A stretch of 64,000 bases of DNA from Candidatus Bathyarchaeota archaeon (GTDB lineage Archaea > Thermoproteota > Bathyarchaeia > 40CM-2-53-6): NCBI GenBank assembly GCA_005888745.1, contig VBBS01000030.1:1-64000 (forward strand). The letters run 5' to 3'. The notes under the pieces are model-generated. The model had not been told where the DNA came from, did not search any database, and was given only the letters and a program-made list of their open reading frames with translations. Of the stretch, positions 2,818 through 44,333 are shown in pieces. The first letter of the stretch is position 1. Every line of letters begins with the position of its first letter. Both the position numbers and the translations under genes were made by a program.

Positions 2818-3426
2818 CTACCGTCGAGCCTTCTCCAATCGCTTCTCCACATCATCCCAATTAACAACATTCCACCAAGCATCAACATACTTCGCCCGAT
2901 CGTTCAGGTAGTCCAAGTAATATGAGTGTTCCCAGACGTCGAGGACGAGTATTGGGGTGGTTCCTTGGATTGTTAGGTCGTTGTGTTTTTCGGCTTGGAG
3001 GGTGATTAGTTGTTGTGTCCATGGTTCGTATGCTAGTATGGCCCAGCCGCTTCCTTCGACTTGTTTGGCGGCGGTGCTGAATTGTTCTTTGAACGAGTCA
3101 AATTTGCCGAAGTCGGTGTTGATCTGGTCGGCTATTTTGCCGCCTGGTTTTCCTCCGCCGTTTGGTTTCATATTGGGCCAGAAGGTGCTGTGCATGGTGT
3201 GGCCTGAGCCGTGGAAGGCGAGGTCTCGCTCGATTGCTTTGGCGTCGACGCCTGCGAATCCTGTTTCGCGGGCTTTCTGGAGCTTGTCTAGGGCGGCGTT
3301 TGCGCCGTTTACGTATGCGAGGTGGTGTTTGTCGTGGTGTAATCGCATTATCTGCTCACTTAGGGTGGGGACGAGTGCGTTGTATGCATAGGGGAGGTCT
3401 GGTAGCTTGTATCTGTGATGGGGCAT
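2818..3426 (-). CDS. sod: Fe/Mn superoxide dismutase
   Basis: This enzyme dismutates superoxide to oxygen and peroxide, normally as a cytoplasmic dimer or tetramer. The 202-residue length is typical. All four metal ligands are visible: a His in the LHHDKHH segment near residues 29-35, the His of AFHGSGHTMHS near 71-81, and Asp and His of the DVWEHSYYLDY signature near 164-174. Metal specificity (Fe, Mn or cambialistic) cannot be fixed from sequence alone. ATG at 3426 lies about 29 bases after a TATA-like element, so the mRNA is probably leaderless. Its presence indicates that the host meets oxygen. Confidence 0.97.
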   Translation of the reverse strand: MPHHRYKLPDLPYAYNALVPTLSEQIMRLHHDKHHLAYVNGANAALDKLQKARETGFAGVDAKAIERDLAFHGSGHTMHSTFWPNMKPNGGGKPGGKIADQINTDFGKFDSFKEQFSTAAKQVEGSGWAILAYEPWTQQLITLQAEKHNDLTIQGTTPILVLDVWEHSYYLDYLNDRAKYVDAWWNVVNWDDVEKRLEKARR

Positions 3427-3850: not shown

Positions 3851-4240
3851 GTGACGCGTGTGAAAGGAACGGAATACCCCTACCAGTTCGCCGATTTCCT
3901 AGATTTCTTATGCGAGAAGTATCATATGGATAGGAGCCGGTTGTTTGTCGAGTACAGTTCTAGACAGCCTCCCCCACTCAAAGGTACTAGGGCAGGCTAC
4001 TACGAGGGACTGCTCTCGTATCGTGAAAAGAATGGCCATTCCGAGTTTCTGATCACAGTCTTCAAGGCCTCGCGCGAGCCTCTCCTAACCCTTGCACACG
4101 AGTTCGCTCATCTGGTCAAGAACTTGAAGTCCGGAAGCTTTGACAAACATCTAGGTCCCCCAGACGATACGGCCGAGAGAACCGTTGACAACCAGGCGAT
4201 TGATGACCTAGCCGAGTTCCGGGAACTTGGTCATCCTTGA
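3851..4240 (+). CDS. Small HExxH metallopeptidase-like protein
   Basis: A 129-residue protein with HEFAH at about residues 83-87, the gluzincin zinc-binding and catalytic motif. A downstream acidic stretch (ERTVDNQAIDDLAEF, residues 108-122) could supply the third ligand. Size and layout resemble ImmA/IrrE-type minimal zincins, which often cut regulators, but the partner DNA-binding protein usually encoded beside ImmA is absent. The start is GTG at 3851. No signal peptide is present, so it is probably cytoplasmic. Substrate unknown. Confidence 0.65.
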   Translation: MTRVKGTEYPYQFADFLDFLCEKYHMDRSRLFVEYSSRQPPPLKGTRAGYYEGLLSYREKNGHSEFLITVFKASREPLLTLAHEFAHLVKNLKSGSFDKHLGPPDDTAERTVDNQAIDDLAEFRELGHP

Positions 4241-4358
4241 CTCCCTTGCCATCAAGCACTGGGCATTTGGTTTTTTTCAAATCGGGACAGTATGACTCGG
4301 ACGAGATTATAGTAAGTTTCGAACTGGGGGCCGGATTTTGTAGATTCAGAAATATTTC

Positions 4359-4550
4359 TCAGTGTTTGGCTTCTCTTACCTCTTCGAAGACGAGATAAGC
4401 CCCGGCGGTTGCGATTAACGTGAGAACCCCGTGGAGCTGTAGGATGGGACCGATCTGGACTGCGTTGGCAACGCTGCCTGTTATGATCGCTGCACTTGGG
4501 GTTGCCATGGTTACGAGGGCTCCTAGAGAGGTGAAGACGCGTCCGAGCAA
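4359..4550 (-). pseudogene. C-terminal fragment of an MFS_3-type exporter
   Basis: The minus-strand frame encodes 63 residues matching only the last portion of MFS efflux proteins of the EntS/MFS_3 type: GRVFTSLGALVTMATP (the cytoplasmic RGRV-like turn) followed by the final two membrane helices and a short charged tail. Intact relatives are about 400-440 residues; one is encoded at 52940-54265. The upstream ~350 codons are absent, so this is a 5'-truncated relic. On the other strand an unrelated start-less frame begins near 4537, as though sequences had been joined. Confidence 0.55.
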
Positions 4551-9463: not shown

Positions 9464-9611
9464 TATCAGGAGGACATTCTCGGATATGTCAACGCGGCGG
9501 ACCCTGATCTCAGGGAGGGTGCCCAGCCTGTCCCTTGGAGACGAGTCTACGGATCCGCCCAGAACGGTCACCATCTAGATCGAGGATTCTTGGTTCGCTC
9601 TTTAGCGGTCA

Positions 9612-12853: not shown

Positions 12854-13177
12854 TTGATCATTCTGTCTATGACTGACTCTGGTCCTGCACTTTCCGATAT
12901 GGAAGAGGGCGGGGATGGTATGGCAAAGTACGCGGTTATGGTCTTGGAGTTCATCAAGAAGGACGTGTTCGAGGACCGTAAACAGGTCTCCGTGGAAGAG
13001 GTCGTCACTCTGATTGCAGCGTTGACTGACATCTCAGTTAGTCTGCTGTCACGCTTTCGGAAGGACCAGGTTGACCCCACCAAAACGACAGAAGTTGGAC
13101 GGGATGTTTTCAAGTACATGGTTGGACGACTAGGATTCGACATCGACAAACTAGGCAAATCAAACATCTACGTCTGA
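12854..13177 (+). CDS. Hypothetical helical protein with paralogous relic elsewhere in the window
   Basis: A 107-residue acidic, largely helical protein with no membrane segment (EFIKKDVFEDRKQVSVEEVV in the centre). No family is recognised. The start is TTG 12854 or ATG 12869; a GGGAGG at 12845 lies too close to the TTG to be decisive. Its last 13 codons are repeated almost exactly (34 of 38 bases) at 41554-41591 without the rest of the gene, showing that a second copy once existed there. Confidence 0.6.
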   Translation: MIILSMTDSGPALSDMEEGGDGMAKYAVMVLEFIKKDVFEDRKQVSVEEVVTLIAALTDISVSLLSRFRKDQVDPTKTTEVGRDVFKYMVGRLGFDIDKLGKSNIYV

Positions 13178-21511: not shown

Positions 21512-22225
21512 CTAGAGCTCTATCCGAAAGATTTCCGCTCGGGTTTCTAAGGGATTCCCAGATTCGAGATCAAGGCTGACTCTGGACGAGTCTTGCAGAC
21601 CTCTCCTCTGTACTCGCGTCATACGGTTGAACCAGAATGAGACGATCGGCACAAACCAGATCAATAGCCTAACGTGTACTCCGAGGAAGAACCAGTCCCA
21701 TGGAACTGTGAGAGAGAACAGCACTACTATAGTCAGGACTGTTAGTCTGCTTCGTATTTTTCGAAACCTTATCATTTGGTCGCTGTCGACGAGCTGCTTT
21801 TCCTCTTGTGCGATCAAGTGGGCAAATCCAGCCATTATGGAGAGAGAGCCCGCATGGACGAACGTGAACAGGGTGGAAGCATAGTTCTGAACATCCTGTG
21901 TATTGTTCAAAGACACTGCTTGGTCGAATAGGTAAGGAATGATCGCGACAAGGATCAGTAGCACGACGTTTAGGAACGTTACAAGACGTGTCTCAACAGG
22001 CAGAACCGACATGTCACTGGTGTAGATTATCCAGCTCGTAATGAGGATCAGAAAGACGAATAGAAACTCTAGAATGTTCCTGTTGATATCACCTGCATTC
22101 GATGCCGTGCTATTGGTTATCACCAGGCTGATCGCGCCGATCGAGAGGGAGAGTCCATAGATCAGATCGGACAATGTCTCAAGTCGCGGTCGAGGATGTC
22201 GATTTTGCTGCTCACCCTGTTGCAT
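21512..22225 (-). CDS. TMEM175-like / DUF1211-type six-helix membrane protein
   Basis: A 237-residue protein with an N-terminal RLETLSDLIYGLSLSIGAI segment at residues 15-33. It resembles the R-x-x-x-(F/L)SDxxx signature of TMEM175-family potassium channels. Five further hydrophobic helices and a polar tail follow. The family conducts K+ or H+ leak currents in endosomes and many prokaryotes, so a channel role is an inference. A second, 5'-truncated copy with long stretches of identical DNA lies at 40515-41026. ATG at 22225 is the only reasonable start. Confidence 0.65.
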   Translation of the reverse strand: MQQGEQQNRHPRPRLETLSDLIYGLSLSIGAISLVITNSTASNAGDINRNILEFLFVFLILITSWIIYTSDMSVLPVETRLVTFLNVVLLILVAIIPYLFDQAVSLNNTQDVQNYASTLFTFVHAGSLSIMAGFAHLIAQEEKQLVDSDQMIRFRKIRSRLTVLTIVVLFSLTVPWDWFFLGVHVRLLIWFVPIVSFWFNRMTRVQRRGLQDSSRVSLDLESGNPLETRAEIFRIEL

Positions 22226-22405: not shown

Positions 22406-22645
22406 TCAGATCAGTTTAGGGTCCCTGAATACTGGGAGCTTCGGTTTTTCTTGGGGACGGATGCCTACATCGTAGCGTGTGGAGACTTCTATTCGGAAAA
22501 TCAGCATCAGCTCTTTGATCTTCATTGGAACGGACTCTTTGTCCTCCCACGTCTCATAAACGTCGAGGATTTCTCTTACGAATCCCGGAGCCAGACCAAT
22601 GTATTCCAGACCCAAAACAGTCCTCCCATCGAGGCTTCGTTGCAA
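22406..22645 (-). CDS. Hypothetical small protein
   Basis: The 79-residue minus-strand frame from TTG 22645 has globular composition (GRTVLGLEYIGLAPGFVREILDV segment, residues 7-29) and is preferred over the opposite-strand frame of similar length. No domain, signal peptide or operon partner is recognised. Frame choice is uncertain. Confidence 0.35.
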   Translation of the reverse strand: MQRSLDGRTVLGLEYIGLAPGFVREILDVYETWEDKESVPMKIKELMLIFRIEVSTRYDVGIRPQEKPKLPVFRDPKLI

Positions 22646-22831
22646 GAACTTAGACAGGTCAGCTAGCTGAAACTACTCGCCTTATCGTAATGACTACGGC
22701 GAATCACTCTAACCTAACTTGAACACTACAACTGGTTTATGCGAGGCAAAACCTTCAGAAGACGTCGCTTCGCTTCACTATCAAGCTAGAGCATAAGAGT
22801 TAAAGAAATTATCGGATGAACGGGCGCGTAC

Positions 22832-35619: not shown

Positions 35620-37425
35620 TTGTATGAATCGCTCATAGTAATGCTGAGCGGTATCATCGTCTACAGTGTCGTCTATCAGTTCTATGTGAAATGGTTCGAC
35701 CGGAGTGTCGTGCAGTCTGATCCAAATCGTCCCACGCCAGCCCATACGTACATGGATGGTGTCGAGTTCTTTCCATCAAACAAGTATGTCATGTTGGGCT
35801 GGCACTGGAAGAGCATCGCAGCGCTCGGACCAGTGACAGGGCCCGCCTTAGCAATAGTCTGGGGATGGTTGCCCGGATTTCTCTGGATACTGATCGGAAA
35901 TTCGTTGTTGGGCTGGTTACACGACTACAATTCGATGGTCTCATCTGTAAGAAACGAGGGCGCATCTCTTGGACCTTTAACGTATCAGCTGATAGGAACT
36001 AGGGCGCGAAAGGTACTTGTCGCCTTTCTCGCGTTCTACTCGATCCTCATATTCGCGGCTTTCCTGGGGGCGCTCCTTCCTGTGGTCAAGGGCACGGGCG
36101 CGGGAGGTGCAGCCGCGATGGTATCGTTCCTTCTGATCGCAACAATAGGAGCCGTGTCTGGCTTTGCAATATTCAGGGCCAAGATCAATGTTGTAGCCGT
36201 TACCGGAATCTCTCTAGCAGCGGTCGCTCTATCCGTCTATCTCAGCCAGGTCGTGTTTGGAACGGTGATCAACTCAGCCTTCATCTCCGCCGTACCTGAT
36301 GTACAGTTGCAGGAGGATATCCTCTTGGTTTCCATGCTAGGATTCAGTTTTCTCGGAGCGGTCCTGCCGCTCTGGAGTTTTGCCATGCCGATAAACTATC
36401 TGGGATTCTACGTAGCCTACTTCGTGATCGCAGCAATCATAGGAAGCTCGTTCGTTGCGCCTCAGACTTTTGCTCAGCCTCTCTTCACAAACTGGTTCGC
36501 GCCCGTCTCGATAGGCGCCGGATCCGGGCTGATCAGTACCATATCGTTTCCTCTATGGCCTCTCCTCTTCGTCACTATAGCGTGTGGTGCGTGCTCGGGT
36601 TGGCATGGCCTGATTGGGTCGTCTCTTTCATCCAAGCAGTTGGACAATGAGGCTGACGCTCACTTCGTTGGCGGAGGTGGAATGTTGCTTGAAGGGATCC
36701 TGGGGCTTACATCAGTGGTCGCGGTTGGGGCCCTTACATCGACAAAAGGTGGTGCACTATCCCTCTATGTGAGTGGTGGAGCCAAGTACCTTAGTAACCT
36801 GCTGATCCCGTCGGCCGCATCGACCGCGATCATGGCCCTTATGGTTCTGATACTGGGGCTCACGCTGACCCAGCTGGCCCTCCGGTTTGCGAGGCTGGCC
36901 ATCTCAGAGATGGTTGGACGGCGTTTTCTCAAGAACATCTACGTTACCTCGATTGTCGTGTCGATAATCACATTCTTGCTTACGAGCACGAGGTTCAGTG
37001 CTCCTTGGGGTTTCATCTGGACTCTGTTTGGTGGCTCCAACCAACTCCTTGCCGGTGTAACACTCCTCGTTACAACACTTTGGCTCGCAAAGATCCGAAG
37101 GACAACATTGTTGACGGGTATACCGGCAATATTCATGCTAGGCACAACCATCGTTGCGCTAGGCTATACTGCCTATGCCACGCTCGACATTGCTATGACG
37201 ACGAGCACACCATTGAAGATCTACGGAAACGCAATTGCGGGCGGAATCGCAATAATACTGACGATTCTTGGCATAGTGCTGTCATATGATGGCTTCCGCG
37301 CCTATCGGCGGATCAGAGTCGGGGTAGTCGGCGTGCCGCCCATGATTCCGGGACCAGTGCTCGCCAAGTCTATCGAAGCGGAGACGCCGCAACCAAGCCT
37401 CACTAACGAGTTCGCTGAAAAGTAG
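35620..37425 (+). CDS. cstA: CstA-family carbon-starvation / pyruvate-type transporter
   Basis: 601 residues with at least fifteen hydrophobic helices. Family motifs are present: DPNRPTPAHTYMDGVEFFPS near residues 32-50, GHW-like MLGWHWKSIAALGPVTGPA near 58-76, and CGACSGWHGLIGSSLSSKQL near 325-344. Bacterial CstA and BtsT import pyruvate or peptides with H+. The substrate of archaeal members is not established. Slightly shorter than E. coli CstA. The start is TTG; the gene is monocistronic or coupled to the 213-residue protein 38 bases downstream. Confidence 0.92.
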   Translation: MYESLIVMLSGIIVYSVVYQFYVKWFDRSVVQSDPNRPTPAHTYMDGVEFFPSNKYVMLGWHWKSIAALGPVTGPALAIVWGWLPGFLWILIGNSLLGWLHDYNSMVSSVRNEGASLGPLTYQLIGTRARKVLVAFLAFYSILIFAAFLGALLPVVKGTGAGGAAAMVSFLLIATIGAVSGFAIFRAKINVVAVTGISLAAVALSVYLSQVVFGTVINSAFISAVPDVQLQEDILLVSMLGFSFLGAVLPLWSFAMPINYLGFYVAYFVIAAIIGSSFVAPQTFAQPLFTNWFAPVSIGAGSGLISTISFPLWPLLFVTIACGACSGWHGLIGSSLSSKQLDNEADAHFVGGGGMLLEGILGLTSVVAVGALTSTKGGALSLYVSGGAKYLSNLLIPSAASTAIMALMVLILGLTLTQLALRFARLAISEMVGRRFLKNIYVTSIVVSIITFLLTSTRFSAPWGFIWTLFGGSNQLLAGVTLLVTTLWLAKIRRTTLLTGIPAIFMLGTTIVALGYTAYATLDIAMTTSTPLKIYGNAIAGGIAIILTILGIVLSYDGFRAYRRIRVGVVGVPPMIPGPVLAKSIEAETPQPSLTNEFAEK

Positions 37426-39299: not shown

Positions 39300-39558
39300 T
39301 TCCTGATGGTGCTAGAAGTCGTCGCGGAAAAACTGTCAAACTCCCTCTTTTTTCCTAAGCCCGATAATCTTGACTGTATGGTCGTGTTAATTTTTCGCCG
39401 AATCCCGAACTGAACAGATCCTGCCAAGAGAGAGGAAGTGCACGATCGCTCACGGGTCAGGGTAAGATCTCCAAGCAACCCGCTTCAATGATCAGGTTGC
39501 CGCGAATTTTGCTCTACCAAGGGCATAGTCCGGCGTTCTTCACGCGAAAATATCTGCA

Positions 39559-40461
39559 CTATTGTGCTGGCTTTATCCTGATCTTCTTGTGCCCGCGGGC
39601 TTTCGAGGGAACCCACCCGCCATCCTTGGTTCGCTTGTAGCTTTCATTGTAGTATTGTCCAAAGTCGCTGGGGTTGAGGAGGGCGTCTGCTGGGACTAGG
39701 GCCCCCCAGCCCCGTCCTCTCATGAAGATCTCATTGAAGTCCGGATTGTGGATCAGATCCTTCGAGTTGTCGGGGCGGTCGTGCCAGACCTCCATATCGA
39801 GTATACGCAGGAGTTCTCCCCGATCCGCGATCAGTTGGGAAGCATCATCCGGCCCAGTTGGCTTTCCAATCAGGTCCCCCCGATGGACGGCGATTTCTTT
39901 GTCGTTGAATCTGAGGGTTCCCGACCCTTCGAGAATCAGATAGTATTCATCGACTTCGCTGTGGCTGTGTAATCGAGCGGCCGATTCCCCATTCTCGATC
40001 ACTTCGACCCTGAAGGCAGTCCGGCCGGGCCCGAGCAACGGCATGAGGAATCGTGTATAGTATCCTTCTCGTTTCCTCGTTAGCGAACGTTCAGATCCGT
40101 CTAGCTTACTATCATCAAAGACGTTTATGACAGGTTTCCTCCAGAGGTTCTCTGAAAGCACCCCGTCCTTCTTCAGGTAAACTTCGTTTGACCAGAAAGA
40201 TGCTAGGCGTAACAAGAAATCCATTCCCTGCTCGCTCAGGGAGGGTATCGTCAGAGTCAGCTCGCTGCTAGAGTTCCGGTTCAGGTTTCCTGCTTTCTTG
40301 CCGAGCTCGTCCCAGAGCCAGTTTGTAAACGGTATCAGTCTTCCGCCGTGTCCTTCGGGGATTGTTGGCTTCTCAAAGAATAAGGTCCAGGCCAGGTCTA
40401 CTCTTATTGCTCCCTCACGTACGATTTCTTCGAGTATCAGCTTCATGGTTCCAGATGTCAT
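39559..40461 (-). CDS. Cupin-domain protein
   Basis: 300 residues. The C-terminal half (residues ~145-230) is a cupin with AARLHSHSEVDEYYLILEGSGTL-type metal-binding His and Glu residues, followed by the second motif HRGDLIGKPTGPDDASQL. The N-terminal ~130 residues (TLFFEKPTIPEGHGGRLIPF) are unassigned. Cupins of this kind bind Fe, Mn or Ni and act as dioxygenases, isomerases or storage-like proteins; the reaction is unknown. The start is ATG at 40461. Confidence 0.8.
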   Translation of the reverse strand: MTSGTMKLILEEIVREGAIRVDLAWTLFFEKPTIPEGHGGRLIPFTNWLWDELGKKAGNLNRNSSSELTLTIPSLSEQGMDFLLRLASFWSNEVYLKKDGVLSENLWRKPVINVFDDSKLDGSERSLTRKREGYYTRFLMPLLGPGRTAFRVEVIENGESAARLHSHSEVDEYYLILEGSGTLRFNDKEIAVHRGDLIGKPTGPDDASQLIADRGELLRILDMEVWHDRPDNSKDLIHNPDFNEIFMRGRGWGALVPADALLNPSDFGQYYNESYKRTKDGGWVPSKARGHKKIRIKPAQ

Positions 40462-40514
40462 GTTGGAATGTATTGATGAGGGTTATCCTTCTCGGAGGTT
40501 CAGCGTCGTAGATT

Positions 40515-41026
40515 TTACGAGGTCTTTGGAATGCTGGGAAGACCGAAGGGCCTGCTTCTCAATGGGTTTGACCAGAATGAGATGATGGGAACATACCAGA
40601 TGAAGAGCCTAACGTGTACTCCGAGGAAGAACCAGTCCCATGGAACAGCCAGAGATAGTAAGACTACGATTGTCAGGAGAGTTAGCCTGTTTCGGGTCCT
40701 TCGAAGCCTTACCATCTGGTCGCCGTCGACAAGTTGTTTCTCTTCTTGTGAGATGATGTGTGCGAATCCAGCGAGGATGAGAAGTGTGCCTGCGTAGTCG
40801 ATCGTGAATAGGATTGACCCGTAGTCTTGATCCACAGCAGTGTTGTACAGGGACACTGCCTGGTCGAACAGGTAGGGGATTATCGCGACAAGGATCAACA
40901 GTAACACGTTCAGGAATGTTACGAGACGGGTCTCGACCAGCAATACGGACATGTCGCTGGTACAGATTATCCAGCTGGTGATCAGGATCAGAAAGACGAA
41001 GAGAAACTCGAGAATGTTCCTGTTGA
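40515..41026 (-). pseudogene. 5'-truncated copy of the TMEM175-like gene
   Basis: The frame matches residues ~50-205 of the intact copy at 21512-22225, with long stretches of identical DNA (for example a ~40-base block at 40609-40650 including ACCAGTCCCATGGAAC). Similarity ends abruptly at about 41026. The N-terminal signature and first helix are absent, and the tail differs (SNPLRSRPFGLPSIPKTS). ATG 40952 could start a shortened protein, but it would lack the channel signature. Confidence 0.75.
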
Positions 41027-41219
41027 AGACTTCGGACTCGCGACGACAATTGAGGAATCTGCTGGAATACCGCCGCTTATCTTGATCGCTCTTGGGACCA
41101 TAGGTGGCGCTCTTGTTGCAGGCTTTGCTGCAAAGATGGGTCCGATACTTGGGATTACCTCAAGAAGAAAATTGTCAATGTCGCCCACAAACCTCGAAAC
41201 TGTGAGGGCACGCGAATAG
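41027..41219 (+). pseudogene. 3' fragment of a gene encoding a membrane-anchored protein
   Basis: The plus-strand frame reads FGLATTIEESAGIPPLILIA, then hydrophobic Gly-rich sequence (LGTIGGALVAGFAA) and a charged end, to a stop at 41217-41219. It looks like the C-terminal membrane anchor of a surface protein. No start codon lies at its beginning: the frame opens exactly where the TMEM175 copy's similarity stops. It appears to be a truncated gene joined head-to-head with another truncated gene. Confidence 0.5.
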
Positions 41220-41248
41220 AACATCTTTTTCATTACAATGGAGCAAAA

Positions 41249-41554
41249 GTGTCATGCACACTAAGAACCAAGGACTCGAGTGTTGTGCAGAAGGCGCTTG
41301 ACGAATGGAAGAACGTTCTCACCGAAGTCCAAGATATGGCAGAGAAAAAAAACTTACCGGGAGATGAATCGTATATCTACTTTCATTTCCGAGAGGAGCA
41401 TTGGAGAATAGATGATGCGACCATCATGAAACCATTCTTCGATCGCGTTAGGTTCGATTACACAACCGGCAAGTGGAGATCAGTAGATCCACATGCAAAC
41501 AGGATTCAGAGACTTTCAGAGAAAGATGAAGAAAGGAGAATTGTCAGAAGATGA
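41249..41554 (+). CDS. Hypothetical acidic protein, start uncertain
   Basis: 101 residues from GTG 41249, but the frame is open for some 100 bases upstream without ATG, so the true N-terminus may be missing as part of the rearrangement at 41027. Sequence DESYIYFHFREEHWRIDD and FDRVRFDYTTGKWRSVD suggest a beta-rich domain preceded by a helix (VVQKALDEWKNVLTEVQDMAE). Family not recognised. A relic of another gene begins at its stop codon. Confidence 0.5.
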   Translation: MSCTLRTKDSSVVQKALDEWKNVLTEVQDMAEKKNLPGDESYIYFHFREEHWRIDDATIMKPFFDRVRFDYTTGKWRSVDPHANRIQRLSEKDEERRIVRR

Positions 41555-41591
41555 GGATTCGACCCCGAGAAACTAGGCAGATCAAACATCT
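41554..41591 (+). repeat. Relic of the 3' end of the gene at 12854-13177
   Basis: Matches 13132-13169 at 34 of 38 bases and would encode FDPEKLGRSNI then a stop, against GFDIDKLGKSNIYV in the intact gene. Nothing upstream is shared, so only the 3' tail survived. It sits 0.5 kb from the truncated TMEM175 copy, another duplicate of a gene located in the 12-22 kb part of the window. Confidence 0.6.
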
Positions 41592-41762
41592 GAAATGAAG
41601 ATCTACAAGCGGGCGGAATGAGTCACCAAGGACCTGTATGCCAAAGTCTCAACCAGCTTGGCACGATCACATATGAGACGGAACGACTTGCATAGGTCGT
41701 CGAGGAGAATTGGCCCTGTTAGGTCGCTCCCCTGGTTTCGGAAAAAATTCGCTACTATTCAG

Positions 41763-44333
41763 CTAGGACAGTTCCTGCAAGGATATAGGGGCAATCTTCC
41801 GGTAAGCCTCGCCCGGGTTCAAGCGTCTTTCCTGAACAGTCAACAGAGTCTCGACAGATATTCCGAATAGCCGTTCGTTTTCCTCTAGGAATGGAAGGAT
41901 CAACTCCCAATCCTCCTTGGTGAAGTCCTCCAGCAGTCCTCCGTTCAGCTGCTTATCCGTAACCTTTCGATATGGATCACGAATGAATATCGCTCCACCT
42001 GAGGCCAGTGAGAACAGGTTGCTTCCCGGATACGGATATTCTTGTTCAACGAATTGTCCATCAAAGGATGGTTTCAATCCGTTGACAACGACAAACCCTC
42101 CGCCACTATGCGGGTCTCCAGCCATGAACGACTCTGCAAGATAATCCAAGCATGTTCCGTTAATCACTACTCTCGGCCTTCCTACTGCGTTGATCAGTGG
42201 GCGTCCTGCTGCGTTGCCCAGCACGTACACGTCACCGCCCTTTGCTGCGTACATGAATGCCTGGCCCACATCGCCGTGAACCACTAGCTTTCCGTACTTG
42301 AGAATCTGCGCGGCCTGGTCTTGAGCAGCCCCATGAACCGTGATCTCGCAGCCATCAATGCCTGAGGCGACGTAATCGCCGACATCTCCGTAGCAATCAA
42401 TCTTCAAGCCGTTCGTTCTTGGCCCTAGGCCGCTTCCGATGAATCTATGGCCTCGCAGGTTGTAGAGCAGAATGTTCTTCCAGCCTTGACCATACGCCTC
42501 GACAACGAACCTTGCAGCGCTCTCACTTCCTTCAGCCGGGAACTCTAGAGTATCAACAACTAGTACCTGTTCGTCCACCAGTGGATGGACCAATTTCGCT
42601 CTGTTCTTCCAATCCAACCGAGTATACAAATCATAGTTCGACATCGAGATAGAAGCGAAGACATCGTTCAATGCTTCGTGGTATAGTTGCAGTAGTGAGC
42701 TTCGTTTCTTTCTCCCTGTGTCGTAGATTCTGTCGTAGAGTAGTGAGAGTGCTTTTATCGCGAACTGTTGGGACTCTTGTCCCTTCATAGCCAGCCGTTT
42801 CAGCTCTTCAAGAATCTCCCCCACGTACTGGAAGCCAGCATCCTTCAACGCGGGACGAACATATTCATAGAATCCCAACGGGTCCTGCGTACCGGGACCC
42901 TTCTGCAGCTGAATCGCAATACTAGCGTTCAGAGAGACACTAGAACCCACATTCGGCAGCCAGTCCTGCTCCGGAAGCTCTATCGTCTTTCCAAACTTGT
43001 CAGCACACTCCAGTTCCTTCCCATCCTCACCATCTTTCACAGTAAAGAGGAATGCTCCACCATCCGTGAAGCTTCCACCCCTCGCATTCCAGTACGAATC
43101 CGCAAATCTACTTGGAATTTTCTGATCTTCCTGCAGCTTTCCTAGAACCGCATTGATCGCTTGTCTCTCTGACGCGATAATCCCGATCTTGACCGGACCC
43201 TCCTGAACGGCAAACACTTGCGGTCTCAGCATCGACGTATCAGTTATCCCGAGCAACTGCCACGCATTCCGCTCCACATCATTACGTGCAACAATGAAGA
43301 ACCATGGCCCATCAGGGGACCCGTGAATATGCGTCGACTGGATCAATCGATAGATCTTTTTCTTGTCCTCCGGCAGCATCTCAAAATCTCTCTCAGTTGT
43401 CGGTGCCAGAGCTTCGATCAGATACTCCAACGGATACTTGTAGACACGGCTGAGAAGGTCGAACAGTAACACAGAAACCTCCGTATCCGTCAAGAATAAC
43501 GGGTGAATGTTCCGCTGGGCCAGATACTCCATTATCGAATGATAATTCGCAAAATCACCATTATGCACCAACGCCTCGTGCAATCCAACGAACGGATGCG
43601 CACCGCCTGGATGCCAGACCCGGCCCTTCGTCGGATACCTATGATGACCAATCCAGACATGAGCCTTGAAATCCTCTAGACGGTAGTACCTGACAACATC
43701 ATCTCCATAACCCACCAGCTTCAATACAACCATGTTTTTCCCATGGCTGACGACGAAGGCCTTCTTCTCCCCCAGCGACGAGTAAAACTGCTGATTCAGT
43801 CGGTAAGAGTTCTGGTAAAGAAATTCATCCTCTACTTCGTTTTCCTTGAGCCCCTCTAAACCATTCTTATGAGCAAAATCCGCAAGAACGTCTCTCTTAA
43901 TTCTTACAAAGTACCTGAAAACCTGTGGCGGTTCCACCTCTAGACCCGGAACTGATCGATAGTCATCAACGGCATCCACTTTCCCCTCGTAGTCAACAAA
44001 AAAGAAAGGCCGAATGTGCTCGTCCTCGACCCGTTTTCTAACAGACCGATCCAGATACGCAACCTGCAATATGTAGTCCTCCTCCAGAATTTTCTTAGAG
44101 ACGCCTAGCTGTTCTGGGACCAGTCCGACAGCTGCAATCCCACCACCTTTCCCGTTTCCGCGGTTCCGCATCTGGACAAGAGATTGGAGGAGATATTTTC
44201 CTTCAAGTGGGGCGTTACATGCCAGGCCTACGACGCCGCATCCGCCCTCCGCCTCTTGGCTGCCGACCTGGATCCTTGATACTGGCAGTGATCTTCTTGA
44301 ATCAATAATCTGTTGTCCAGACAATGCTCTCAC
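41763..44333 (-). CDS. Glutamate synthase-like protein: class II glutamine amidotransferase fused to GXGXG domain
   Basis: 856 residues. A short propeptide of ~31 residues precedes the catalytic Cys32 (GGCGVVGLACN). The class II amidotransferase domain follows with GHHRYPTKG near 232-240 and ALVHNGDFANY near 259-269. Residues ~600-800 form the GXGXG beta-helix (GSGLGPRTNGLKI, HGDVGQAFMYAAKGG). The domain releases ammonia from glutamine and channels it to an FMN enzyme, here encoded separately upstream on the same strand. Archaeal split glutamate synthases use comparable parts; N-methylglutamate synthase is another possible relative. ATG at 44333. Confidence 0.85.
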   Translation of the reverse strand: MRALSGQQIIDSRRSLPVSRIQVGSQEAEGGCGVVGLACNAPLEGKYLLQSLVQMRNRGNGKGGGIAAVGLVPEQLGVSKKILEEDYILQVAYLDRSVRKRVEDEHIRPFFFVDYEGKVDAVDDYRSVPGLEVEPPQVFRYFVRIKRDVLADFAHKNGLEGLKENEVEDEFLYQNSYRLNQQFYSSLGEKKAFVVSHGKNMVVLKLVGYGDDVVRYYRLEDFKAHVWIGHHRYPTKGRVWHPGGAHPFVGLHEALVHNGDFANYHSIMEYLAQRNIHPLFLTDTEVSVLLFDLLSRVYKYPLEYLIEALAPTTERDFEMLPEDKKKIYRLIQSTHIHGSPDGPWFFIVARNDVERNAWQLLGITDTSMLRPQVFAVQEGPVKIGIIASERQAINAVLGKLQEDQKIPSRFADSYWNARGGSFTDGGAFLFTVKDGEDGKELECADKFGKTIELPEQDWLPNVGSSVSLNASIAIQLQKGPGTQDPLGFYEYVRPALKDAGFQYVGEILEELKRLAMKGQESQQFAIKALSLLYDRIYDTGRKKRSSLLQLYHEALNDVFASISMSNYDLYTRLDWKNRAKLVHPLVDEQVLVVDTLEFPAEGSESAARFVVEAYGQGWKNILLYNLRGHRFIGSGLGPRTNGLKIDCYGDVGDYVASGIDGCEITVHGAAQDQAAQILKYGKLVVHGDVGQAFMYAAKGGDVYVLGNAAGRPLINAVGRPRVVINGTCLDYLAESFMAGDPHSGGGFVVVNGLKPSFDGQFVEQEYPYPGSNLFSLASGGAIFIRDPYRKVTDKQLNGGLLEDFTKEDWELILPFLEENERLFGISVETLLTVQERRLNPGEAYRKIAPISLQELS

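Follow-up and report, generated by a model that had tools for sequence, protein, structure and literature searches.

A head-to-head junction of two 5'-truncated genes in a soil Bathyarchaeota genome, probably produced by local deletion in a variable interval

The closest described parallel to the locus presented here is formed by the pseudogenes that are left at deletion junctions in prokaryotes, with which it shares 5'-truncated stumps, promoter loss, an early stop, a frameshift, and conserved flanks that enclose variable content. No feature sets the locus apart from such cases, except that none of the genomes searched contained the ancestral gene pair, and it looks like ordinary gene decay at a position where gene content changes often. 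The hallmarks of an insertion sequence or integron junction (a transposase or integrase, terminal repeats and a target duplication) were not found: the ORFs between positions 36000 and 46000, read by eye and without a transposase-library scan, together with the repeats around the junction, revealed no recognisable transposase, integrase or target duplication, and no repeat is present at the junction itself.

With regard to protein families, one of the two genes involved had been labelled TMEM175, a group of potassium channels (PF06736) for which the published description places an FSD motif at the start of helix 1, the helix that lines the pore (PMC7176437). The LtrA membrane proteins (PF06772) represent the second family with which this gene was compared.

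The window, i.e. the whole stretch of 64,000 nucleotides that was analysed, is part of a contig (C38) of 217,161 bases belonging to a draft genome (G000) of 2,195,209 bases in 75 contigs with an estimated completeness of 93%. The features of the window that are relevant to the analysis are as follows:

21512..22225, minus strand: intact paralog of the truncated minus-strand gene, identified by sequence match
39559..40461, minus strand: cupin gene, the conserved left neighbour (ORF and neighbourhoods in relatives)
40408..40411, no strand: approximate point of a second rearrangement, at which the cupin 5' end passes from native sequence to that of the copy accompanying the TMEM175-like gene
40515..41026, minus strand: 5'-truncated copy of a membrane-protein gene (TMEM175/LtrA-like), defined by comparison with the paralog and with genome G016
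41026..41027, no strand: junction, 41026 being the last base common to the intact copies
41028..41140, plus strand: plus-strand gene piece in its first frame (profile positions approximately 37-66 of a family of ~190 residues)
41141..41551, plus strand: the same plus-strand gene in another frame (profile positions 67-190)
41540..41592, plus strand: 52-base 3' tail of a multi-copy small-protein gene, with an intact paralog at 12854-13177
41763..44333, minus strand: large glutamate-synthase-like gene, the conserved right neighbour (ORF and neighbourhoods in relatives)

The junction and the truncated minus-strand gene

The original prediction placed a rearrangement junction at about 41027 on the basis that a minus-strand copy resembles the gene at 21512-22225 only as far as about 41026, and both statements hold. 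Alignment of 40565-41026 with 21625-22086 of the paralog (78% DNA identity) ends at 41026, while a closer intact relative (G016:C59), which is 90% identical over 40297-41026, ceases to match at the same base; the breakpoint is therefore the same in two comparisons. The G016 gene extends approximately 49 codons past this point to a start codon at 4028 and encodes a product of 223 residues. All three copies are alike through ...CTGTTGA, beyond which only the two intact copies agree. The junction at 41026/41027 is real, and it joins two 5'-truncated genes head to head.

The minus-strand remnant lacks its first ~49 codons and its promoter, its frame has no start at the position used by intact copies, and its first ATG is internal (40952). 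In an alignment of seven intact proteins the most conserved stretch, LSDLIYGLSLSIGAISLV (helix 1), falls inside the part that the remnant has lost. The remnant also terminates five codons earlier than the G016 gene and is altered at positions that are invariant elsewhere (Y to C and P to L). When substitutions were assigned to branches using six outgroup copies, four synonymous and seven non-synonymous changes fell on the window branch and 14 and 6, respectively, on the G016 branch, with 13 placed on neither; the contrast is not significant (Fisher p = 0.13), and the lean of the window branch towards non-synonymous changes is suggestive only. Since this contrast is not significant and the pairwise dN/dS between the remnant and the G016 gene is still low (0.159), the truncation may be recent.

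The TMEM175 label is a weak one, as judged from Pfam scores that do not reach the family's gathering threshold: the intact copy in the window attains 21.8 bits and the G016 copy 18.7 bits against a cut-off of 25, and the match of the former covers its first 97 residues. The LtrA family gives 18.4 bits (residues 16-196) and 25.4 bits (residues 45-197) for these two copies, respectively, again below the cut-off (31.9); for the G016 copy, LtrA is the higher-scoring family of the two. At the start of helix 1 the intact copy carries LSD where TMEM175 has FSD, and this LSD is invariant in the seven intact relatives. It differs from TMEM175 proteins in the score, and in the lack of any match in a PDB profile search with the seven intact membrane proteins; the truncated copy begins after the motif and is devoid of helix 1. 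A structure model of the intact paralog displays seven helices, as compared to the six transmembrane helices per repeat expected of TMEM175, but its mean pLDDT (52.6) is too low to support a fold search. Should the TMEM175 label be correct, the remnant would be unable to form the channel pore, as the residues matching FSD would have been lost with the truncation.

Among the relatives of this gene, a further copy (G006:C67) carries a frameshift near codon 44 (approximately 9476-9483), close to the position of the truncation in the window copy. An apparent frame break in the copy of G015 proved to be no more than its natural stop. In the window (22448-22678) as well as in G016 (4173-4402), the intact gene has a conserved small-protein stretch upstream, and stretches similar to 22448-22678 are multi-copy in the genus.

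The broken plus-strand gene

On the plus strand an open frame without ATG, GTG or TTG crosses 41027 and stops at 41219, in agreement with the prediction of a start-less frame at the junction. This frame had been read as the C-terminus of a surface protein, and its 64-residue peptide indeed contains a hydrophobic stretch followed by basic residues, as in membrane anchors. Yet a search of the genus (17 other genomes, E<=0.001) yielded no relative of the peptide and Pfam gave no match, and when the threshold was relaxed to E<=10 its best outside match had an E-value of 0.016. The gene does not end at 41219 either, as it continues in another frame to about 41551. The frame at 41213-41551 matches proteins of approximately 190-210 residues in 9 other genomes among 256 of the class (10/256 with the present one) and in 2 others among 398 genomes of a phylum sample. 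Pfam, NCBIfam and PHROGs provide no usable name for this family.

A profile of the family was built from eight homologs, with the window left out. It aligns the second frame from approximately 41141 at positions 67-190, i.e. the C-terminal two thirds of the family, and places the piece at 41027-41140 at positions 38-59 or, in a read-through of both pieces, at 37-66, immediately ahead of the second frame. The first piece thus lies in another frame than the remainder but in the right register. The read-through scores 89.4 bits versus 84.1 bits for the second frame alone, a value reached by 7 of 3000 shuffles of the first piece; the first piece on its own scores -0.9 bits against the profile, and against a single homolog (G011) it is not significant, 610 and 349 of 5000 shuffles scoring as high. 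Family positions 1-36 are absent and the N-terminal ~66 positions are not in one frame with the rest, which identifies a broken copy. The third-codon-position GC contents of the two pieces are alike (45.9 and 46.0%), and both are lower than the value for any of the 45 non-overlapping window ORFs that encode 150 or more residues (52.8-72.6%).

Judging from these alignments, 41028-41551 reads best as one broken gene of an uncharacterised archaeal family of ~190 residues, lacking its first ~36 residues and bearing a frameshift near 41140 that is either true or an assembly indel. The supposed surface-protein C-terminus is most likely an out-of-frame impression, and its last part is contradicted by the family match of the second frame, which starts at about 41141 and overlaps it. 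We consider it improbable that 41027-41219 encodes a true surface-protein C-terminus lying beside a start-less remnant of the ~190-residue protein, so that three separate stumps would be present. The anchor-like composition of the peptide would suit such an arrangement, as would the weakness of its best relatives (E 0.016 or worse), but the last ~75 bases of the anchor would then be out of frame with the homologous sequence, and the first piece fits the family in register and shares the unusual third-position composition of the second frame. The locus serves mostly as a warning to annotators: gene counts should include neither stump, and the name surface protein is inappropriate for the plus-strand frame.

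The claim that both genes have lost their 5' ends therefore stands, for the minus strand by ~49 codons and for the plus strand by ~36 residues, with the qualification that the plus-strand gene is also frameshifted. No other copy of the latter was found in the genome.

Origin of the junction and fate of the missing DNA

The cupin gene and the large gene at 41763-44333, which we take from its sequence to be a glutamate synthase (gltB), flank the same interval in G016, G005 and G013, with differing contents. Among 11 gltB loci, the cupin gene is nearby in four (the window and these three genomes); in three of the other seven a contig end lies within about 1.5 kb, which is not so in the remaining four. 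The interval measures about 1.3 kb in the window, about 1.0 kb in G005 (where it holds one other gene), about 3.9 kb in G013 and about 8.8 kb in G016. In the latter it contains genes for a 689-residue FG-GAP protein, the intact minus-strand gene, a divergent gene for a 746-residue protein and a transporter-like gene (named by eye), so that the order is cupin, intact minus-strand gene, a divergent plus-strand gene different from that of the window, and glutamate synthase. The best explanation of these arrangements is that genes are often gained and lost in this interval within the genus, a group of soil Bathyarchaeota. A search of plasmid records with 39500-42000 returned no match. The 3' part of the glutamate-synthase-like gene (41763-42660) is approximately 75-82% conserved in the genus, as compared to 87-90% for 42850-43800 in the seven closest genomes. 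Recombination in the G016 gene, whose 3' part is 75% identical to that of G000, was considered and rejected, as this part is less conserved in other genomes too.

The original prediction offered a deletion, an inversion or a chimeric assembly as the cause of the junction, and of these deletion is retained. Searching the G016 segment 3884-9460 in 18 genomes of the genus gave matches in G000 only at 22087-22224, which is the 5' end of the paralog, and at 22448-22678, where a small gene lies upstream of the paralog. Apart from these two matches, the lost 5' region and the DNA beyond it, as known from G016, were thus not found elsewhere in the genome, and an inversion or translocation has no support. 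Within the limits set by the 93% completeness of the genome, the sequence is therefore more likely to have been lost than to have been inverted or moved.

A chimeric assembly is also improbable. The genome is a metagenomic draft and composition shifts at about the junction, both of which would suit a chimeric or locally wrong contig, but both sides occur in the same interval in G016, the two neighbours are native and recur in G005 and G013, and the window is free of N runs. Moreover, a foreign piece of approximately 0.5-0.7 kb would need to have been placed between flanks whose order is correct. The likelihood of a long-range chimera is low because both flanks keep the order seen in a separate genome, while a local assembly fault is possible.

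Local deletion or deletions in the variable interval provide the explanation that we favour, with reasonable though not full confidence. The interval would earlier have held two genes pointing away from each other, namely the TMEM175/LtrA-like gene on the minus strand and an acquired member of the ~190-residue family. A deletion would then have removed the shared upstream region (the divergent promoter) together with the 5' end of each gene, so that their stumps now meet head to head at 41026/41027, and the plus-strand stump would afterwards have become frameshifted (or acquired an assembly indel). A single deletion of the shared upstream region would yield precisely such a join if the ancestor had a G016-like layout with the acquired gene, and it was probably a single event that removed both ends. 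The two genes would accordingly have been divergent beforehand, and both stumps are presumably non-functional pseudogenes. An intact divergent pair of the minus-strand gene and a gene of the ~190-residue family is absent from the genomes searched, i.e. the order preceding the deletion was not observed.

The plus-strand gene was probably acquired, as it is AT-rich relative to its surroundings: the GC content of 41141-41551 is 43%, below the values of 99.95% of equally sized windows. Its composition also bears on a replacement, in which foreign DNA carrying an already broken plus-strand gene was inserted or recombined in, taking the place of the minus-strand gene's 5' end. This course of events is rather unlikely. 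It would agree with the deviating GC content at all positions and at third codon positions, with the distribution of the ~190-residue family, which otherwise occurs mostly in other families of the order, and with the presence of another recombination point 600 bases leftward. Imported genes can nevertheless reside for a long time before a deletion, and the surroundings of the junction contain no recognised integrase, transposase or target duplication.

Further remnants within the interval

Deletion in the interval may not have been confined to 41027. Tentatively, and with less confidence than in the deletion itself, the interval could be viewed as a turnover site across the genus in which acquired genes are eroded by successive deletions, leaving layered stumps at approximately 40410, 41027 and 41540. 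If so, it would preserve a modest dated history of how genes were gained and lost in a group of archaea that is uncultured.

The stump at 41540-41592 consists of the tail only, with stops, and matches coding sequence at the 3' end of a gene for a small protein, of which relatives have several copies. An RNA or tRNA origin was rejected: the segment has no match in Rfam, the window contains no tRNA, and the sequence matched is coding. The intact paralog at 12854-13177 encodes a small uncharacterised protein of 107 residues, for which PHROGs, NCBIfam and Pfam give no family name.

At the left end, G016 possesses two copies of the cupin 5' end (481-615 and 3168-3302; 135 bases, 85% alike), which flank the gene for the 689-residue FG-GAP protein. 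The single cupin 5' end of the window is a hybrid, native-like to about 40408 and, from approximately 40411 onwards, similar to the copy that accompanies the minus-strand gene (site counts of 8 to 3 versus 5 to 16; Fisher p = 0.02). Either the window lineage lost a segment by recombination between the repeats or the linked piece was recombined in, and either way this constitutes a second rearrangement 600 bases from the junction at 41027.
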